Origin: Siphonodentalium dalli
Lineage: Eukaryota > Mollusca > Scaphopoda > Gadilida > Siphonodentaliidae
Reading direction: 5' to 3'
Length of the DNA: 64,000 bases
NCBI GenBank assembly: GCA_032622095.1
Contig: CP136061.1
Coordinates: forward strand, 88,714,983-88,778,982
The first letter of the stretch is position 1. The number at the start of each line of letters is the position of its first letter. Below the pieces are notes generated by a model. It saw only the letters and a list, made by a program, of their open reading frames with translations, ran no database searches and had not been told where the DNA came from. Below are positions 30,401 through 60,639 of this stretch, one piece after another. A program made the translations under genes and the position numbers.

Positions 30401-33400
30401 GGTGCTGGTTATTATTGTTATTTTAACGGAATTCTGAGTTGGTCATTCGCGAAACCAATATATTTTATATTCTATAATTACAATCATGGGTATATAATAT
30501 ATGATCTTGAGCGCGTTACCATTTCTGACATTGGTTTTCTTGTATTGAATTTATAATATGTTTGAACCGCATGCAGGTTGGGCCAACAACTGGGATGCTG
30601 CTTACAACTTCAAATGCCCTCATGCTGGCTATATAGCGGGTATGCAGAGTCAACACCGCAACGACAAGGAAGACAGGCTGTATAAATTCTATTGCTGTCA
30701 TTTGACTGGTAAGAAACGATATTTACACTGTATTAAATAGCCGTATTTTCAACGGTAGATATGTACCGTAATATCTATATTTACGGTAATACTGTTAATG
30801 GCGCGTGCGCGCAATGTATTTTGGGAAGGGTTTTCTTGCGTCGTCTAATCGCCGACGCCATTTTCTCGGATTGTGAAGTCGTGTGTTGGTCAATCGTTGG
30901 GAAAACAGTTGTTGTGTTGTTCTTAGTGTGTTTGTCAAGGTTTTGTGTTGAATATTGCTATGTTATTAATCAAATTTTAGTCATTACGCCATTGCCGACC
31001 AAATTACAATCAACCAGTGAACATATGGAAAATACGGTGTTCTGTATATTTGACGGTATAATTGTATAAGTATACGGTAGTGGAATATACGGTGTACTGT
31101 ATATTTGACGGTATTATTGTATAATTATACGGTAGTAGAATATACGGTGTACTTTCAACTATACGGTAGACTACTACGTAAAAATTACGGTGGGTTATTT
31201 ACAGTGTATAGAGTACCTTAAAGACATATTATGTACTTGTTCGGGTGTGAGAAACTGATAAGTTAGTATTCAGTCACTATAATAACTGAAGGAATGTAAC
31301 AGTCTACTAACATCGCCGAAAATTTGAAGCAAATCGACCGTACCACTCCAAAGAAAACATAATCAGATCTACGCTCAATTGTAAATATTTACTACTCTAT
31401 TCGGGACGCATCAATCGGCGATAAATTAGCGAAAACGATTTCGCCATCGAGAGTCAGTTCATTTAATTAAAATATAAGAATGACGACGTGTGTTGTCAAT
31501 TTGAATACATTATTTGTATTTGATCACCCTACCGGAGTGTTTCATATCACTTTAACATATGGCATATCTCTAATAATAGTCAATGTTGTTTGTCTGTCGG
31601 GCTATGGGCGGCCGCACGACTGGACCCTCGAAGCTGAACATTTATACACAGTGGTCAATTGACCAGGGGAGTATCATGGGATAGGTGCCGTCGGCATCAG
31701 ATATATTACAAGGGTAAGGTAAAACCACAATATATATGATCTCAAGCCATTCTATTTCGTTTGTCTTCGACCTGCGAAGAATGTTTCGAGTTCCGAGAAA
31801 ACTTTTGTTTTTCTTCAGAATGTCATTTCCGTGTCTGTATAGTTTGACATCGCGCTTATAAGAATGTTTCGAGTTCCGAGAAAACTGGTGCTCTTCTTCG
31901 AATGTATATTCTATCAGTAAATATAAAATGCAGAAAGTATCCCGTGTTTTTTTATTTTTGCACCACCCCAATCATGCAACACAAATAGTAGTCCGTGGGC
32001 CAAACAAGATATTTTTCGAGTTGGCTGCACCCCCCCCCCTCCAACAAAGGTTTCTACATATCAAATTAAAGGTCATCATATGGCGCATCAGATTTAGCTT
32101 GTTGCCCGTTTCAGAAAGTGTCCCAAAATAGATTTTTCAGAGAAGACATCCCTTACCCCTAAAATAAAATGAAAATTTTCTTGAGTACAAGTGTCAGAGC
32201 ATAAACAAAATATTGCGGTTATAAACTGCACAATATATAGTTCATATTAACAAGACATTATCATAAAATGTCACGAGATACAAAACTAGACCAATTTATG
32301 AGCTAGTTAGAAAACATTGCGATAAATATTTTGAAATCGCGAAAAATTACTTGGATTTTGAAGAAAAAAATGGTCACATATAAATGTCTATAACTTGTGA
32401 ACCACATGGGGTATTGATCCGCAACATGGTTCAAAAATTGCCCCGATGACATATAAAAACGATTTTAATAATGGAATGCCAAGAATATTGCTGTCAAAAT
32501 GTTATATGAGCGTAAACTTAACCCCACCCCCTAAAATATAACTTTTGCAGAAAAACGAATTATGTAGTTTACACTTAGAATGCTGCATGTCAAGTTGGTT
32601 TTTAGAAGCATAAACTGAAACAGTGTACAGAGTGATGAAGGAAATGATAAATAACGGTGTCTGAACGTGATCTAAGATTTTAAAAATGTTTTAAATGTGA
32701 AAAATGAGAATTTTTTCTAATTTTGATTAAATTTTGATAGGCTATGGTATATCCTCACGAGAACACTGGTCAGAATTAGTAAGTTCATAAAACCTCATAC
32801 GATCACCTTTCTGGCAACTATTTCGTTTTTCAATTTTTACTTGAATTTTTATGGAAAGATTATATACATATATATTTCAACTGAACATGGCTACAGAGGC
32901 TTATGAGTTAGACTTACGTTATACAGAACGGTATTTTCTTATTTGTGTCGCGCATGTCGAGACAGTGATCACAATTGACAATAGATACGTCATTACATAC
33001 GCTCCATATTTGACAATAAGTTTAGGATGGCATCCAAATCGGCCAACAAACTCGAAGTTGCTCATTTTTTTCCTTCACAAACGTGACTGAGTTCGTTATC
33101 TTATCTGGGGACAAGGGAATTGTTAATCATGAGTTCACTGGTAACAATAAATATACCTTAGAAGCCTCTATTGTTTCAATTAATTTAATCTAATGAGTAA
33201 TTGGTTGTCTTACGGACTATAGATACTCATTTATTGGGGGAATGCTTGATACAAGTCAGTGTATAGAAAGATTAAAACAATCATCACTAATATATGCCCG
33301 TTGGACCAGTTTAGATAAGTAATATCAATTTATATAATGTTTCTGACGAAAATTGAAATTGTATGCCGAAATTACCAGCCTCTAATTTCAAGTTGCATAT

Positions 33401-42271: not shown

Positions 42272-42389
42272 ATAAATTGAGAAGTATCTGCTCAAAGTAG
42301 TTATTTTTTTTTACAAATATTAATCCAATTTGACAACACACACACCGTCATTCTTATTATATATTAATTAAATACAATGACTCTGTAGA

Positions 42390-42580
42390 TGGCGAAATCA
42401 TTTGTGTTAGGTTACCGCCCATAGTTGCGTCCCGACTCGAGATGTGAATATTTACAATTGAGCGTAGTTCAGGCGATGTTTTATATGGAGTGGTATACTC
42501 GATTTCTGTGCATATTTCGGCGGTGTTGGTATAATTCCCCAGGTTGGCATAGCGCCTGGGTACTAACTGTTTACCTTTAC
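42390..42580 (+). repeat. Interspersed repeat family S, copy 4
   Basis: GAATATTTACAATTGAGCGT, then ATTTCGGCGGTGTTGGTATA and GGTTGGCATAGCGCCTGGG match 1327-1480 in the same orientation. Together with 41775-41828 it is the host repeat that the 439-bp MITE entered. Confidence 0.65.
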
Positions 42581-42813: not shown

Positions 42814-43632
42814 CCCAGATCACATTATATACAATATATGCCATATTATAAACCCAGATCACATTATATACAATATATGCCATATTATAAACCCAGATCA
42901 CATTATATACAATATATGCCATATTATAAACCCAGATCACATTATATACAATATATGCCATATTATAAACCCAGATAACATTATATACAATATATGCCAT
43001 ATTATAAACCCAGATCACATTATATACAATATATGCCATATTATAAACCCAGATCACATTATATACAATATATGCCATATTATAAACCCAGATCACATTA
43101 TATACAATATATGCCATATTATAAACCCAGATCACATTATATACAATAAATGCCATATTATAAACCCAGATCACATTATATACAATATATGCCATATTAT
43201 AAACCCAGATCACATTATATACAATATATGCCATATTATAAACCCAGATCACATTATATACAATATATGCCATATTATAAACCCAGATCACATTATATAC
43301 ACTATATGCCATATTATAAACCCAGATCACATTATATACAATATATGCCATATTATAAACCCAGATCACATTATATACAATATATGCCATATTATAAACC
43401 CAGATCGCATTATATAAAATATATGCCATATTATAAACCCAGATCACATTATATACAATATATGCCATATTATAAACCCAGATCACATTATATACAATAT
43501 ATGCCATATTATAAACCCAGATCACATTATATACAATATATGCCACATTATAAACCCATATCGCATTATATACAATATATGCCACATTATAAACCCATAT
43601 CGCATTATATAAAATATATGCGATATTATATA
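42814..43632. repeat. 39-bp satellite, exactly 21 units without indels
   Basis: Unit CCCAGATCACATTATATACA plus ATATATGCCATATTATAAA. From 42814 to 43632 the period is exactly 39 (819 bp, 21 units) with only scattered substitutions, which cluster in the last units (ATATCG in place of AGATCA, CACATT in place of CATATT). Since 39 is a multiple of 3 and several frames lack stops, long open frames of up to 317 codons appear on both strands; these are not genes. Confidence 0.95.
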
Positions 43633-45192
43633 CCATTTGAAAGAGGAAGCTCCAAAACATTGTATTTTCAAATTTTATAATTTCATAATTACTACGCGTC
43701 GCTCGTTGTGTCACTTGCCAAAATGAATCTACATGTGTCATTAACTCATTACGTCCCACGGTGGTTGAGTTCTACTGTTCTACTGCTGAGTGCTACTGTT
43801 TTGAAGAGTTGGCGGTTTCTTTGCAATATAATAAGCATTGCAACATACGTGTATGGTTTATTATCACGGACAGTGTTGAAACTTCCGGAAATGTAACTTC
43901 TATTTATCAAGCAAGGTTATGCATTTAAGTTTCTGCGTTACAATTAATCATCACGCCGAATGAAACTACCATACACTGTGGCGAAACATGACTTCGTGTG
44001 GTGCATGCCCGAAATTATTATTTTTGGGCCCGACTGTAAACAGAAAACCCAAACTTTTAAAGACGTAAATCATTGGGTTCGACTTGCGTTGCAATGACCG
44101 ATAAATGAATGGATCTGTTTTAATGATCTGTATACCTTTAAAGATATTTAATAACAGATCTGTATATTACCAATACGTATTTTACCTACTAGGTGGTTAT
44201 ACAATATGTTGCTTTCGTCGTGGCTTGACTTGGTGGTTGCGGCCATTTTGACAGCCATTTTATGACCGCGATTGTATTATTCTGACCGTGTCACTATATT
44301 CGCTTTCGTACTCATATTTCACATAAACTGATATAACTGTGTAATTCATATGACTAGATTAGACAAAATAGAAGAGCAACATATGACCAGGTCGTTGACG
44401 ACCAGTTTTGGCGCTAGAGTTATGTTTTTATAAGTTTTGACAACATATGATATGCGTACTTGCTAATTCTGCCTAGTATAGCGAAGGAGTGGTGTCTGTG
44501 TAGTTTTAAAAGTAGATAATTGGGTCTATATTTTGAGTAGCCCGAGCCATCCGACATCGTATACAACAGTTTGCCATAAAACCCGTCATTGTTTTGGCTC
44601 AGTGTTTTATTTCATATCAATATCTGCAAAATTCATTCGAAGTTCCCCTTTGAATGGGTGTCTTTGGTTCGAGAATTGTGTATCAAACAATATTGAGTGC
44701 CTTTTGTATAAGTTTCGGCTGAATCTCAGAAAGCTCGACTAGGATTTTAGGGGACGTTTCGTGACGAGTCCGCGATGTTATGGCCTAAATAATATAAAAT
44801 AAAATCAGCTTCCCCCGACTTAATCTCTTACTTTTCCACTTTCATGTCTAATGTGCCTGGACTATATATGAATGAGTTACGAATAAATAATCACAGAGTC
44901 ATAGAAGGTATTTGTGTGCTGAGTCGAGTCCTAATTCAAGAAGTGTAACTCTATATAATTAGTTGCTTGTAACCTGTAACGGCAGATTGATTCCATGATT
45001 CATATTGAGTTATCGCGCGTGGTACGGGTTTTAATGAGAAGATAGATGAAAATTGACTGAATTATCTGAACAAATTCCACAACGAAAACAGCTAGCGATT
45101 ATGCACGAAAATCGGCGATTCTTCACCTTCATTATATGTGGATAGCATCGCCTCGTCGGTGCCGTGTACCGTTCAGGCTCCACATAAATCAG
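43633..45192. other. Gene-free stretch; right flank of the satellite, then duplicated receptor flank
   Basis: 43633-43670 is the right flank shared with 37.0 kb. From about 44872 to 45130 the sequence matches 56166-56275 plus 58157-58280, the 3' flank of the intact receptor, so the receptor duplication extends here. No gene is seen in 43.7-44.87 kb. Confidence 0.5.
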
Positions 45193-46763
45193 TCATATGC
45201 GAGTCTCTTCGATATTCCTCTCATTCGCTGCACCGTTACACTAATATGGCGTGTCGACTCTCATCAATACTATCTACGATATTCTTCGCAATCGATTTTC
45301 CGGGAATTAAATCCTTGTGATGTAAACAAAGCTGAAGCTCCTCTCGTGCGTTTCCGACAATTTGCGGAAGGAAACTATTTACGACCCAATCTAAATCAGC
45401 CGCGGCGTACCACACTATGGCGTTATATCTGAAATCACGCTCCTCTTTGTTTCCATGGTTACATGGCAGGTTCACGTTTAGTTTCGTGTATAGTAAAATT
45501 CTTATCTCCTCTCGGAACTTGAAGATAATGCCAAATAAAATGGCCGCCAACCAGAAACTACCAAGTGATATGCCCGTACTGGTGAGGGGGTCGATATCTT
45601 CATTATTAGTAATATTAATAATTGACTTGATAATGGGCCTGACGTTGGGTTCACTCTGTGGGCAAACTTCAGTCTCGTTAAGTTCAAATATCTTTCTTCC
45701 AAACAGTGAGTTGGGCGTGGCGCATGTTATATTGGATGGGTACTTAACAGGTCCGTTGCTGCTCTCGTTCCGTATTTTACATAGTAGCTTTATGGTAGGA
45801 AGTATAGCACAGTCACATGCGAACGGATTATTCCTTAGATCTACCTGTAGTGTTGTCAGGTCCTCAAACTGTTGAATTTGGCTCTGTGTCAAATTGGTAA
45901 TCTTATTCGACGTCAAGTCCATCAAGTCCATTATTTCTCTACGAAAGAATTTTGATTACATCCTCAACATTAAACTTAAAGATAGCATATTCATCATTCT
46001 TCATTTGTTGACTATATATGGAAACTCCCTGATGCCACAATTGGAAGCATCTATATGGCTGAGCCTCAAATATCGCAAAAATCGCGTCATGTGTTCCAAG
46101 TATCTGACATATTGGTTATCAAAACAAAAACGAACAGACCGTAATTTGTAATACGGGCACGTTTCCTCTACAATGAAGGTGAAGAAGAAGTTGTTGACGA
46201 AGACAATTGTATTGTTGACGAAGACAGTTGTCTCTGCATTGATTGGGCCACAATTTCCATATTCCATGAGACTCTTCGTCGATTCTAACATAAACTTTGA
46301 ATTCGTTATCTCCATGTTATTCACTGAAGTCAAATTGGGGAGAAAATAACTGTCCTGCGTTTCGATTTCACAGTTATTGATCGTTAATTCCCATAAAATA
46401 TACGGTTCGGCCATTATGAAAGAGGTTACCACTCCGCTGTCACGACAGATCAGCCTCGTGGAATATATAAAACTAATGCCAAACTCATTCCCAAGGATAG
46501 AGTCCCAACTGGATACGTCTGTTGTATTTAATATCACTTTGTCGGCGACCACGCATTCTATCTGAACGAATCTTTTAGTTTGTTCGACGTCGTTAAAACT
46601 AACTTAACAAGATGGTGGCAAAGGTTTCTGCATAGTCACGTAACCCAGATAACGCGGCCAGTTCGTAGGTAAGGATCGTGGGGAAATAACGATCACACAC
46701 AAATTCATACATGCAATAACTACGTAACAGAATACCCATCCATGGGTCATAGGTTGTTCCATT
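45193..46763 (-). pseudogene. Toll-like receptor paralog, broken
   Basis: A minus-strand relative of the intact receptor at 58338-60242. The start region reads MEQPMTHGWVFCYVVIACMN, equivalent to the signal peptide of the intact copy. Ectodomain pieces (FDNQYVRYL, DASNCGIREFP), the NPFACDCAILPTIK LRR C-cap, the TGISLGSFWLAAILFGIIF membrane segment and the TIR start (RYNAIVWYAAADLDWVV) follow in at least three frames. A deletion of about 250 bp near 45235 removes the C-terminal half of TIR, so the last frame stops after SRHAILV. Another loss near 45.95-46.0 kb removes an LRR. It is host sequence, not expected to signal. Confidence 0.85.
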
Positions 46764-47228
46764 ATTCCAATCACTCGTGCATAGTATAACCAAAAACTTC
46801 ACACGGCAACTCTGAATTCAACAGGATCAGGTAGATTTTCAAATGTTCTTCTAAGTTCTTCCGGGATTCATGCCTGGCCAACAGTACTGATTTGTGCAGC
46901 ATGACGACAACATTCACAGCACAACTGCCTACAAGCTTCAGCAGTTCTTAAAGAATGTCGACCATCATGTTCAACAACTATGCATTGGAGTTCACTTGAC
47001 GATTAAATTATATATAGCATATAAACACGGGTGTGATTTACTGCGACAAAGGGCACTTAGGTCATATTTTTTGGGCAAATGGCTCACATTGTCTCTTCTG
47101 TCGTTCACGGCTTTGTGAGTATGTATAATGTTTTATTCTCAGCCATTATGCGTGGGACACGAGGACGCAATTAGTTACATTGCAATCGTGATTTCAGACT
47201 TTCAGTTGCAACCACATAATAATCTTGT

Positions 47229-47466
47229 TTAATCCTTTCATGACGGGAGCTGCTGCAGCATTAAAGATCATGTGCCAGTACATTCTCTTGTATATCAGAA
47301 TCTCCCATAGGGAGCATCGCATATATCAGATAATGCACTGGCTTACAAGGTCAATGTAAATATTGTTAGGCCAATGCATTTTCTTATATATGCGAGGCTC
47401 CCTATGGTAGACTCGCATAATAAAAGAATGCATTGAGACAGGGTTGTCGCATCATGGAAGTGTTAA
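47229..47466. mobile_element. Probable piggyBac-like MITE with CCAATGCATTCTC hairpins
   Basis: TTAA at 47229-47232 and 47463-47466 bound the element. The ends TCCTTTCATGACG and CACTTCCATGATG (inverted) agree at most positions. Two hairpins inside (about 47274-47344 and 47371-47437) belong to the same family as in the TTAA element at 17.7 kb, though more diverged (GCCAGTACATTCTCTTGTAT). This is an older copy. Confidence 0.55.
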
Positions 47467-47477
47467 CATAGAGTTTT

Positions 47478-48061
47478 CTATGGAATCCTATTAGGGCCAC
47501 TTGCTAATGGCGCTTTCGGCGCGCGCCGAAAGCGACAAAAAGTGCGCCATTATTAACGCGCTGAAAGCGCCGAAAGCGACAAAAAGTGCGCCGAAAGCGA
47601 CACAAAGTGCGCAGTTACGCGCGCGCCGAAACATACCCTAATGGCGCACTTTTTGTCGCTTCCGGCGCGCGCCATTAGGAAGTGGACCTAATAGTATGCC
47701 TAATGGCGCCTTCGGCGCGCACCGAAAGCGACAAAAAGTGCGCCATTAGTAACGCACCGAAAGGGACAAAATGTGCGCCGTTACGGCGCACATTTTGTCG
47801 CTTTCGGCGCGCCGAAACATGCGCTAATATCGCACATTTTGTCGCTTTCGGCGCGCGCGCCGAAAGCGACAAAAAGTGCGCCGAAAGCGCTGAAACGACA
47901 AAAAGTGCGCCGAAAGCGACAAATAGTGCGCCGTAACGGCGTATATTTTGTCGCTTTCGGCGCTCTCGGCGCTTTTGGCGCGTTACTAATGGCGCACTTT
48001 TTGTCGCTTTCGGCGCGCGCCGAAAGCGCCATTAGGAAGTGGCCCTAATAGGATTCCATAG
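47478..48061. mobile_element. GC-rich element made of nested palindromes (AAAGCGACAAAAAGTGCGCC)
   Basis: The ends are exact inverted repeats: CTATGGAATCCTATTAGGGC at the left, its complement at the right, extending through GGCCACTT, with TTTT on both outer sides. The 584 bp between consist almost only of the word CGAAAGCGACAAAAAGTGCGCC and its complement, about 15 times in both orientations, separated by GCGCGC and ATTA. A second end-like phrase (ATTAGGAAGTGGACCTAATAG) at 47675-47695 divides it into two subunits. The CpG-rich text contrasts with AT-rich surroundings. Repeat-derived open frames on both strands are not genes. Confidence 0.85.
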
Positions 48062-48429
48062 TTTTGCTTTATTCTTTTGAAAAAATATATTTGAAATCAA
48101 ATATTACATATAAACTGGACATATAGAACACCAAATAATATAATTTTGTTTTTGAAAAATTAATAAAATAATGTTTGTGTCCCTCTTAGACCTCGAAACT
48201 ATATGAAATAAATGAGCATAAAATATCAAACAATATAGTGTCCCTTGTACTAATTCTTGTTTAAAATATGTTATGGTATATCAATATCAATATCACATAT
48301 ACCCTAGAATATAAATTAAATAAGTAAACTACGTTACAGAAACATAAGCCTGGAACCCTCAATACATCTTTATTTTTTATGACACCTATTTTGCTTTTTA
48401 TTTAGATTCAACTTTATAGAAAAATAAAG

Positions 48430-48653: not shown

Positions 48654-48683
48654 GTGGTGAAAAGTCATATGACTTTTCACCAC
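48654..48683. other. Perfect 30-bp palindrome
   Basis: GTGGTGAAAAGTCAT is followed directly by its reverse complement, with no loop. It lies about 70 bp from the hairpin element at 48.43-48.59 kb. Confidence 0.85.
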
Positions 48684-56275: not shown

Positions 56276-58156
56276 TAGCCCTTAGCTCATCAGTGGGCAA
56301 ATTGTTCAATAAAGTAATTAATCATAGATTGGCTAAATTTATGGAGATTAATAACGTTATAAGCGAAAATCAATTTGGTTTTAGTGCTGGCAAAAGTACA
56401 ATTGACAGCGCCTTCGTTCTACATGCGTCTATTCAAAAATATATCACTGCTAAAAAAAACAGTATATGCAACGTTTGTAGATTTTCGGAAAGCATTCGAT
56501 ACAGTCGATCGACAAATACTTTTTAAGAAAATGGAGTTAATTGGAATTACCGGCAGGACAATGCAGATTGTAAAATCACTATATGATTCAAGTATTTATA
56601 TTACTAACACAAGTAAGGGAATTGGCCCACCTCACCTCTCAACAATTGGAGTCCGACAAGGATATGTATTATCCCCTCTATTATTCAAGATATTTATTGA
56701 TGACATTGATGGCATCTTTGATGATAAATGTGACCCATTGTCTATCGGGGTCTAGCAAACTAAATCACTTATTATTTGCGGATGATTTAGTGCTATTGTC
56801 AGAAAGTCCGGAGGGACTTCAGCGGTCATTAGATAGCTTACAGTCTTACACAAATATGAACGCTCTCTCAGTCAATCCTGATAAGACCAAATGCATGATT
56901 TTTCGAACTAGAAAACCAAACTTTAACAAAAACTTCTTCCTTGCTGGAAATCAATTGGAAATTGTTAACGAATACACATATCTTGGAATAACCTTTGCAA
57001 ACACGGGAAAATTCATACAGGCAGTGGATAACCTGAGCGTCAAATGGCTCTCTTTTCAATAACACATGCATGTGCTAATAAAGCACCACTCCCTCTTAAA
57101 ACGTCCCTTAAACTATTTGACAAATTAATTAAACCCATCATCTTATACGGAAGTGAAATTTGGGCAACAGGAATAACTAAACAAAATTATGATCGTTATT
57201 CGTGTGAAAAAGTTCATGTATCACATTGCAAACATATTCTCGGAGTTGGAAAATATGCATCTAATTCTGCTGTTCGAGCTGAACTAGGAAGCTATCCGTT
57301 ATATATTGATGCATTGTATAGAATGGCTACCTACGCGTTAAAATTACCTCACGTTGCACGAGCAAGTTATTGCAAGACGCAGTTATTGAACAACTTAACG
57401 GAAAAACTGGTAGTTCCATCTTCAAAAGTTTAGAATCGTATGGGTTTACTATAAATAGAGATGAGAGTAGTAGCGTCCTTCTGAGTAGTCTGATTTCGTT
57501 CAAACGACAGCTTCAGAAAAACCATGTTATAGATTTTCGAGTCAGTATGCTTGATAGCGCTTCTAAATCCGGCAAAAACAAGCTAAGAACATATAGGCGT
57601 TTCAAACGAAATTTTGAGTTAGAACCCTACCTTATTCACACAGCTTCCCAATCTGACCGTACAATGTTTACGCGACTGAGAATAAGTAATCATTCTCTTG
57701 CTATTGAAAAAGGTAGACATACGCAACCGAAAAAGACACCTTTACCATTACGGCTGTGTGTGTTCTGTGAAGACAAAATCGTGGAAGACGAAAGACACTT
57801 CTTAATTGACTGCCCCCATTATTCCACCCAGCGTAGTGAATTACTAAAACTAATGGAGGGAAGTTTTATTAATTTTCGACTGATGAGTAGATGGGACCAA
57901 CTGAAGCATATATTAGATAATGACCTTACAGAACATTGTGCGAAAGTTTGCAACATAGTCAGGAGGTTTTTCGAGTGCAGATTGAACAATACCTAAATAT
58001 TATTATATAATGCATATAAGTTACACGACTGAGTGATGTTATTATTATACAGTTTATGTTTGTTCATGTACCACATTAATATTATATCTATGTATGGCAA
58101 CCTGTCCCAACCCAGGGACGTATTTTGCTTAATAAAATTCTATTCTATTCTATATT
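56276..58156 (+). mobile_element. 5'-truncated LINE with reverse transcriptase and C-terminal domain
   Basis: Reads VGKLFNKVINHRLAKFMEIN, ENQFGFSAGKSTIDSAF, DFRKAFDTVDRQILFKKM, LLFADDLVLLSES and NPDKTKCMIFRTRKPN (reverse transcriptase blocks in order; catalytic FADD), then RLRISNHSLAIEKGRHTQPK and the CVFCEDKIVEDERHFLIDCP zinc knuckle. About five overlapping frames show at least four frameshifts. The 3' end is TTGCTTAATAAAATTCTATT with (TTCTA)n. The endonuclease and 5' part are missing. The flanks match 44.87-45.13 kb, so the site is a known empty site. Jockey/I-like clade; exact family open. Confidence 0.85.
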
Positions 58157-58337: not shown

Positions 58338-60242
58338 TCATATGCGAGTCTCTTCGATATTCCTCTCGTTCGCTGCACCGTTATGTTGAATTTTTCTGCG
58401 ATTTTTGGTCGACAGTGCATAAATTAATTTGTCCTTGAATAGCGCATCGTCAGCATCAACATAAGTAAACGTCTGCAAACAACGTCTGACGTCAGATTCC
58501 ATTTCTTTTTTGGGAACGTCCTCTAACTTGATGACGATGATCCGGCGCGATTTGTCTGACATACATTGACGGAAAGCGGTTCTAAACTCGAACAAGCACC
58601 ACTCGCTCCGGACGAATTCTCGACTAAATACTAATATGGCGTGTCGACTGTCCTCAATACTATCTACAATATTCTCCGCAATAGATTTCCCGGGAATGAA
58701 ATCCTTGTGATGTAAACAAAACTGAAGCTCCTCTCGTGCGTTTCCGACAATTTGCGGAAGCAAACTATTTACGACCCAATCTAAATCAGCCGCGGCGTAG
58801 CACACTATGGCGTTATATCTGAAATCACGCTCCTCTTTGTACCCATGGTTACATGGCAGGTTCACGTTTAGTCTCGTGTATAGTAAAATTCTTATCTCCT
58901 CCCGGAACTTGAAGATAATGCCAAATAAAATGGCCGCCAACAAGAAACTACCGAGTGATATGCCCGTGATGGTGAGGGGGTCGAAATCTTCAATATTAAT
59001 AATGGGCCTGGCGTTGGGTTCACGCTGTGGACAAACTTCAGTCTCATTAAGTTCAACTATCTTTCTTCCAAGCAGTGAGTTGGGCGTGGCGCATGTTATA
59101 TTGGATGGGTACATAACAGGTCCGTTGTTGCTCTCGTTCCGTATTTTACGTAGTAGCTGAATGGTAGGAAGTATGGCACAGTCACATGCGAAAGGATTAT
59201 TCATTATGTCTACATGTAGTGTTCTCAGGTTCTCTAGCTGTTCAACTTGGCTCTGCGTCAAATTGGTAATCTTATTCGACGTCAGATCCAGCGTCGTTTC
59301 TCCCTCCATTATCATATCTTCGACGTTAAACTTTGTTATAAGATTACCGGACAAATTTATATAATTAAGAGATGGCATGGTCACTCTCCATTTATTGAAT
59401 ATTTCAGGAAACTCCTTCATTCCACAATTGGAAGCATCCATATGCTTAAGATTCGAAAATCGGAAATAGATCATAATATAATCTAGATAATTTATAGTTT
59501 GATTATCGAAGCAAAAACGAACAGACTGCAAACGGTCATACAGGCATGGTGAGGATATAATATGTGAGATTTGTGCTATCAAGGGCAATGTCGATTTTCC
59601 CAAATCCATAAAGTTCCTACAGCCGTCACAATATGATAACTGGAACGTGTTATTGACGAAGATAATGTTCTCTGAGTGATAGGGACCACAAAGTCCGATG
59701 TCCGAATAATTCTCTAAGATCCAAGCTGTGGGCGCTGTTATTTTGAACCCTGAATTCGTTATCTCCATGTACTTTATTGATGTCATATCTGTGGAAAAAA
59801 AATCTTTGCCCGATTCGCGAATTACACAGTTATTAATGGCTATGCTCCATAAGTATTTCCCAGCCTTTATGAAGGACGACACCACGCCGCCATCGCGACA
59901 TGTCACTCTGAGTTCAAATTTCGGAAATCCAAACTGAGGCTGACGTTTATCCACATTGGGGTGACTCCCAAAGTACCAATTTGACACGGCTGTGGTGTTA
60001 AATATCGCTTTATCAGAAATTACGCAGTCCACCCGGACGACACTAATCGCAAACAAATCGTCAATATGCTCGTAGCTAACAGAACAAACAGACGGTAACG
60101 CTGGAGACGAAGTGTCCGGAACATCCTCGGTCGTTGTGGATAAGGAGTTTTCCGATAAACCATTCACATGAACACACGCACGCGAAACAAACAGATAACA
60201 GAATATCCACCGGACGGGCCAAACGTTCGTGGGTAGTTCCAT
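58338..60242 (-). CDS. Toll-like receptor, single exon, 634 aa
   Basis: The start at 60242 gives a signal peptide (MELPTNVWPVRWIFCYLFVS); an in-frame ATG 16 codons upstream lacks this advantage. Residues 30-260 are a cysteine-containing ectodomain. About 260-345 hold two or three LRRs (LKHMDASNCGMKEFPEIF, LNYINLSGNLIT, TTLDLTSNKITNLTQSQ), and 349-405 the NPFACDCAI LRR C-cap. Residues 425-447 are the membrane helix (TGISLGSFLLAAILFGIIF). About 473-615 is TIR: box 1 YNAIVCYAAAD, box 2 HHKDFIPGKSI, then FSREFVRSEWCLFEF. Toll-like receptors signal through cytosolic TIR-adaptor contacts. The ectodomain is short for the family (few LRRs). The ligand is unknown. A broken tandem paralog lies 12 kb away. 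Confidence 0.92.
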   Translation of the reverse strand: MELPTNVWPVRWIFCYLFVSRACVHVNGLSENSLSTTTEDVPDTSSPALPSVCSVSYEHIDDLFAISVVRVDCVISDKAIFNTTAVSNWYFGSHPNVDKRQPQFGFPKFELRVTCRDGGVVSSFIKAGKYLWSIAINNCVIRESGKDFFSTDMTSIKYMEITNSGFKITAPTAWILENYSDIGLCGPYHSENIIFVNNTFQLSYCDGCRNFMDLGKSTLPLIAQISHIISSPCLYDRLQSVRFCFDNQTINYLDYIMIYFRFSNLKHMDASNCGMKEFPEIFNKWRVTMPSLNYINLSGNLITKFNVEDMIMEGETTLDLTSNKITNLTQSQVEQLENLRTLHVDIMNNPFACDCAILPTIQLLRKIRNESNNGPVMYPSNITCATPNSLLGRKIVELNETEVCPQREPNARPIINIEDFDPLTITGISLGSFLLAAILFGIIFKFREEIRILLYTRLNVNLPCNHGYKEERDFRYNAIVCYAAADLDWVVNSLLPQIVGNAREELQFCLHHKDFIPGKSIAENIVDSIEDSRHAILVFSREFVRSEWCLFEFRTAFRQCMSDKSRRIIVIKLEDVPKKEMESDVRRCLQTFTYVDADDALFKDKLIYALSTKNRRKIQHNGAANERNIEETRI

Positions 60243-60639
60243 AATACAGGTATGTACCCGTCCATTTAACGCGCACAAATAGTCGAACACGGCGGCATGT
60301 ATTCAACCCAAGCAGGATGTTATCACCCAGGATGTACTTAACAGCAGCACAAGCATAGCATTATAAAATTGAACTAGTACTGTTTGCACTAAACGAAAAC
60401 ATTAACATGACAAAAGACAAGATTTAACAACGCTAATACCCTGACGGTTATGCATTGTATATTATATATCGAAATGACTCATGTGCTTGTAACCCTCGGA
60501 ACAAAGTCGCACTACCGACGACTCGGATTCAATTATTTCCATTCGAGTCGACAAAATTGCGACGTTTATTTCAAATAAATGCAAGTAGACGCACTACCGA
60601 CGAACAGAGACGTGGCGACAGGGGGGTTTGGAGTTACTC

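Follow-up and report, generated by a model that had tools for sequence, protein, structure and literature searches.

A 582-bp foldback-ended element in the scaphopod Siphonodentalium dalli, probably a non-autonomous DNA transposon of the IS3EU type

The window analysed here, a 64,000-nucleotide stretch of the Siphonodentalium dalli genome (contig CP136061.1), contains a self-complementary element that we consider, with a probability of about 0.85, to be a copy of a foldback-ended, non-autonomous DNA transposon of the cut-and-paste kind, belonging to the IS3EU type. For the family, we directly observed dispersed copies that share their ends, target duplications of 6 bp, empty sites, a lack of credible coding capacity, and arrays of a short word running both ways, and the assignment to IS3EU is based on the ends together with the duplication length. 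A preliminary description had offered a foldback transposon, a cruciform-forming structure, and a source of small hairpin RNAs as possible readings; the first of these is favoured by the genome-wide recurrence of the exact ends, the 6-bp duplications, and the empty sites of one insertion.

The element occupies positions 47479-48060 (582 bp), with termini TATGGAATCC...GGATTCCATA. Its boundaries were fixed by the target duplications and by the base immediately outside TATGG, which is A, C, G, or T depending on the copy; because of this variability, the first C and the last G of the interval 47478-48061 were assigned to the target duplication. The exact 25-bp outer inverted repeats reported previously are real when these two bases are counted, and the exact match inside the element itself is 24 bp long. 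The left terminal inverted repeat (47479-47585, plus strand) and the right one (47954-48060, minus strand) agree at 99 of 107 positions. The target duplication of this copy is imperfect, with GTTTTC at 47473-47478 and GTTTTG at 48061-48066 matching at 5 of 6 positions.

A 20-bp word core, CGAAAGCGACAAAAAGTGCG, is found eight times in the forward orientation (47527-47930; starts 47527, 47571, 47592, 47723, 47758, 47861, 47890, and 47911) and five times in the reverse orientation (47645-48012; starts 47645, 47787, 47831, 47940, and 47993) when up to five mismatches are allowed, the worst case having three, and no occurrence was detected in the remainder of the 64-kb window under the same cut-off. 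These 13 words cover 260 of the 582 bp, the rest being GCGC-type spacer, CTAATGGCGC phrases, and end modules; the earlier statement that the element consists nearly only of one word in both orientations thus holds for the two-way word and overstates its coverage. The end-like phrase that had been noticed in the middle was located at 47678-47703, where the minus strand reads TTAGGCATACTATTAGGTCCACTTCC, with TTAGGCATAC in place of the tip seen at a real end (TATGGAATCC). In addition, the left subterminal module is present as a direct repeat on the plus strand (47504-47575 and 47700-47771, spanning 47504-47771, 89%), the second copy of which sits just inside this phrase. The reported richness in GC and CpG was also seen: G+C content is 55% in the element versus 37.6% in the rest of the window, and the observed/expected CpG ratio is 1.86 versus 0.97. 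Nothing evident is encoded, as had been suggested, since only three overlapping open reading frames of 83-91 aa lie within the repeat (two on the plus strand and one on the minus strand) and the single Pfam match of the element (E = 0.087) is below its cut-off.

Several other features were observed in the neighbourhood. A separate imperfect palindrome with 45-nt arms (87%) lies just left of the element at 47301-47411 and, together with related sequences around 17.7, 19.1, and 42.1 kb in the window, represents another short inverted-repeat family, and a perfect 30-bp palindrome, GTGGTGAAAAGTCATATGACTTTTCACCAC, is present at 48654-48683. A Toll-like receptor reading frame with LRR and TIR domains detected by Pfam is located at 58338-60302 (minus strand), and a partial duplicate of it (90.5% identical over 676 bp) at 45236-46603 (minus strand), about 0.9 kb beyond which the element is found. 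A reverse-transcriptase fragment (RVT_1) occupies 56574-57062 on the plus strand; the frame that follows (57322-57996) gave no Pfam match and appears by eye to be part of the same non-LTR element. At 42814-43634, a 39-bp minisatellite of 21 units that are 97% alike gives rise to long but spurious open reading frames on either strand.

To assess how widely the ends and the word recur, as the preliminary description had proposed, the genome (2.23 Gb, 9 contigs) was searched with a reversed-pattern control for each end or word count, all of which gave zero matches. The exact 25-mer end occurs 390 times (203 + 187), the 24-mer end with at most two mismatches 2,975 times (1,483 + 1,492), and the exact word core 4,403 times (2,269 + 2,134). 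At two ends per copy, the 2,975 ends suggest a family of approximately 1,500 copies, an estimate that misses old copies and counts single ends. Neither of the situations that had been named as fatal to a mobile-element reading, ends found nowhere else or an artefact of assembly, was encountered. No exact match to the 24-bp end was detected in viral contigs.

Copies were examined as 40 non-redundant pairs of facing ends from loci L001-L059, which are a non-random sample: the best 40 of 2,180 search candidates, the first 30 listed ends starting with C, and one locus chosen for its length. Pairing excluded ends that differed at more than two of the first 10 bases or at more than five of 24, repeated identical flanks, flanks shorter than 30 bp, and pairs separated by 60 bp or less. 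The median length is 490.5 bp, and the distance between paired ends ranges from 130 to 3,211 bp, or from 130 to 1,436 bp for pairs whose duplication matches at 5 or more of 6 positions. The largest figure belongs to L059 and stops at an inner right end; a matching duplication, CTATAC, is present at the outer right end 173 bp further. Within this set, 37 of 40 copies align to another copy over at least 60% of their length, the nearest being 82-98% identical (for the 130-bp copy, the identity is 100% over 88 bp), and the best pair over at least 400 bp (L003/L007) is 97.8% identical; the activity of the family is not ancient. Members of the family are short, non-coding, and numerous, with terminal inverted repeats and target duplications, as are MITEs, and also display the long composite inverted repeats that contain internal repeats, the variable length, and mostly little or no middle that characterise foldback elements, a middle being present in the long copies L029, L033, and L059.

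The alignment of copies for target-site duplications, which had also been proposed, pointed to a single length. An exact 6-bp duplication flanks 22 of the 40 pairs (shuffled mean 0.6, maximum 4), and 32 have one with at most one mismatch (shuffled mean 1.54, maximum 7); in the other 8, two or more positions differ and some appear to be mispaired or rearranged ends. No pair has an exact duplication of 3, 4, 5, 7, 8, 9, or 10 bp, and exact 2-bp matches (two pairs) are as frequent as in shuffled data (mean 2.16). The target is AT-rich in its middle among the 22 exact cases. A looser end-pairing (43 pairs, 5 of which were exact at 6 bp) was discarded, as it mixed inner phrases with true ends. Empty sites were recognised for the copy at L005, which is inserted in another dispersed repeat whose members are present in the window without the element: when the two flanks of this copy were joined with one duplication removed, they aligned across the junction with window positions 31502-31218 (82%) and 1334-1516 (86%), and a third match at 42279-42568 (77%) is gapped and poorly aligned at the junction. 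The three window segments (31218-31502, 1334-1516, and 42279-42568) are themselves copies of that other dispersed repeat, which hosts the L005 insertion elsewhere.

The two-way array is a general feature of the copies: 413 words were found in the 40 copies, in both orientations in 39 of them, and their core is nearly fixed except for positions 15 (A 65%, T 33%) and 16 (G 86%, A 12%), a count biased towards conserved words by the 5-mismatch cut-off. Under a 17-base rule, 33 of 40 copies contain the inner end-like phrase, and a 26-base rule gave 33 occurrences in 29 locus identifiers, with one sequence predominating; the tip is TTAGGCATAC in 27 of these 33 and the body is TATTAGGTCCACTCCC in 29, whereas the window copy's body, like that of 2 of the 33, ends in TTCC. 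This suggests that the inner end is a trace of a fused-dimer ancestor: after two units had joined, this end retained the body and lost the usual tip. Tandem local copies including flank are found at L015 (999-2694), where three right ends are each followed by the same GTTTTGGGACYATGCC flank and the outermost left end is missing from the later units, and at L027 (1864-2991), where GGATACAGATTA precedes two left ends.

No transposase gene was recognised in the family copies that were read. In the long copies L059 and L029, frames of at least 60 aa revealed no transposase as judged by eye, L033 resembles L029, and 1,525 bases of the 2.45-kb copy at L046 contain no frame longer than 68 aa. The core of L059 is another repeat; a 1.9-kb unit (approximately 914-2814 of L059, also seen at L071 and L072) is 93-98% alike at 37 other places among the matches listed and is sometimes in tandem. 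A partner element was sought with the bacterial IS3 profile NF033516, and this route was abandoned: from the best 74 of 3,472 candidates scored, 10 loci were fetched, and the six inspected (L060-L065) have retrotransposon-type frames by eye and lack the family's ends. An integrase-core query yielded 45 loci at E <= 1e-18 encoding integrase elements that we presume to be of the KRBA2 and SCAND3 kinds, and no partner encoding a transposase with the family's ends was found among the 20 that were read (L073-L092). One of them (L073, 1027-2862) has rve and H2C2 matches just under the cut-off. When up to 7 mismatches in 24 were allowed, the family end matched only L080 among these 20 loci, and there it belongs to a non-coding sister element; 8 of the 20 contain the 10-base tip by itself (one mismatch or none), which was attributed to chance. 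In L093, which adjoins a match of a 36%-identity group, a 336-aa frame is presumably OTU-like and Ginger-like, as judged by eye.

The integrase elements share part of the design of the family. Their ends start with TATATG, and TATATGTTACAGT (at most two mismatches) is present in 18 of the 20 loci, L082 being left out because its only match falls inside the coding part; several of them have long inverted repeats that are two-way arrays of one short, family-specific word, whereas the end and the word differ from those of the family studied here. Seven of these loci have both ends, six of which show no duplication and the seventh of which lies in a run of TA; L089 shares GGCGCAT at unequal distances from its ends. 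The sister element (L080, 199-856) is non-coding, with ends TAC..GTA, ATTAGGGCCAC at the right end, a diverged left end, and a different two-way word similar to CAACTCGTTATAACGACTT; for its duplication, GTTTGC, to fit, the right end has to be placed one base outward. Relaxing the end pattern gave 61 matches in the genome, among which the sister form TACGAAATCGC occurs once and most others are close variants of the family's own end, which argues against many abundant sister families sharing the end module.

The folding of the element bears on the other two readings that had been offered, namely that it is a host structural or regulatory element, either a cruciform or a hairpin RNA gene yielding small RNAs, kept for its function. 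The predicted self-folding is indeed very stable (z = -28 as DNA and z = -31 as RNA, with none of 100 shuffles equally good in either case), and several microRNA-precursor families of Rfam match the element below threshold. The extreme hairpin folding follows from the inverted layout, however, and strong hairpins probably attract such scores: all 29 Rfam matches at E <= 1 in 47200-48400 are under the gathering scores of their families (best 64.8 versus 268). Transposition accounts for the end count, the target duplications, and the empty sites; neither a cruciform nor a source of small hairpin RNAs needs to be invoked to explain the structure, and a functional host element is very unlikely. 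Tandem copies with repeated flanks at L015 and L027 would also fit a satellite-like repeat that spreads via tandem duplication and not by transposition, which we regard as highly improbable given that 32 of 40 pairs are each flanked by a 6-bp duplication of their own that differs at no more than one position; these arrays look like a secondary outcome.

Two other kinds of transposon were weighed against IS3EU. Since duplication length differs between groups of hAT elements, a hAT-type MITE of a group with 6-bp duplications might be imagined; hAT ends usually follow YARNG, from which TATGG departs, and hardly any likelihood is left for this option. The ends TATGG..CCATA agree instead with the IS3EU ends TAYGG..CCRTA given in the available part of PMC12730594, in which the hAT5, hAT6, and hAT7 groups are named. 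A foldback element belonging to Mutator (MULE) or P (Galileo) and mobilised by a transposase of that superfamily would share the long composite inverted repeats, internal short repeats, and variable lengths known from Tetris and Tm1, and, according to the accessible portion of PMC4079207, most foldback elements seem to belong to Mutator, with exceptions. The duplication length disfavours this origin, as 22 of 40 pairs are exact at 6 bp and none at 7-10 bp, in comparison with 8-10 bp in Tetris and 9 bp in Tm1 in the parts of their descriptions at hand, and we consider it quite unlikely.

If the element is a non-autonomous IS3EU-type transposon, a model for its movement can be outlined. An IS3EU-class DDE transposase supplied by another element would recognise the end module TATGGAATCC/TATTAGGGCCACTT, and the repeated word would probably provide extra transposase-binding sites; both ends would then be cut, and insertion at a 6-bp staggered target followed by repair would create the duplication. 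The array may lengthen, shorten, and invert via recombination or template switching, which would account for the spread of copy lengths. Most of the copies read may stem from an ancestor of two joined units, and because the inner end has lost the usual 10-bp tip, only the outer pair would be expected to be cut. A broader reading, tentative and with the odds against it, is that the two-way word-array foldback design is common to the integrase-type (IS3EU-like) transposons of this genome, each family consisting of a TA-ended module plus its own word, that the transposase binds the array co-operatively, and that the inner end (33 of 40 copies, with an altered tip) marks a fused dimer that escapes halving and is hence a successful mobile unit.

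Should the IS3EU assignment be correct, foldback ends would have arisen in another superfamily besides Mutator and P. With 413 words in 40 copies, the family also offers good replication for studies of the role that short two-way arrays play for a transposase and of the way such elements become tandem arrays; otherwise, the result is ordinary genome-repeat annotation, and the family may already be catalogued in Repbase or Dfam.

According to the available part of PMC10045372, the termini of IS3EU are always TA..TA and its duplications usually 6 bp, and PMC12730594 describes rust-fungal IS3EU families carrying a TET/JBP gene with 6-bp duplications, inverted repeats longer than 30 bp, and ends TAYGG..CCRTA. 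Under the Repbase rule quoted from PMC4455052, a non-autonomous family has the same duplication length as a family of its superfamily and aligns to it at terminal positions 1-11. The present family has TA..TA termini with a variable base outside, 6-bp duplications, TATGG..CCATA, and long arms, and shares these features with IS3EU/GingerRoot, a Repbase superfamily. It differs in that its copies have no recognised transposase and that its arms are two-way arrays of a single 20-bp word, a layout absent from the accessible IS3EU descriptions. In the literature searched, one paper (PMC8268682) mentions both IS3EU and foldback; its available part does not connect the two and has IS3EU just as the label given to two satellite repeats.

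With regard to architecture, the closest parallels are Tetris of Drosophila virilis and Tm1 of Meloidogyne, which, in the portions of PMC4079207 and PMC3169594 at hand, likewise have modular composite inverted repeats of variable length and non-coding copies, and were placed by their authors in or near Mutator; Tetris further resembles the family described here in its internal repeats and in its association with tandem arrays (PMC4079207). Their duplications of 8-10 and 9 bp differ from the 6 bp of this family, in which no pair is exact at 8, 9, or 10 bp, and this length combined with the TA..TA ends points away from Mutator and towards IS3EU.
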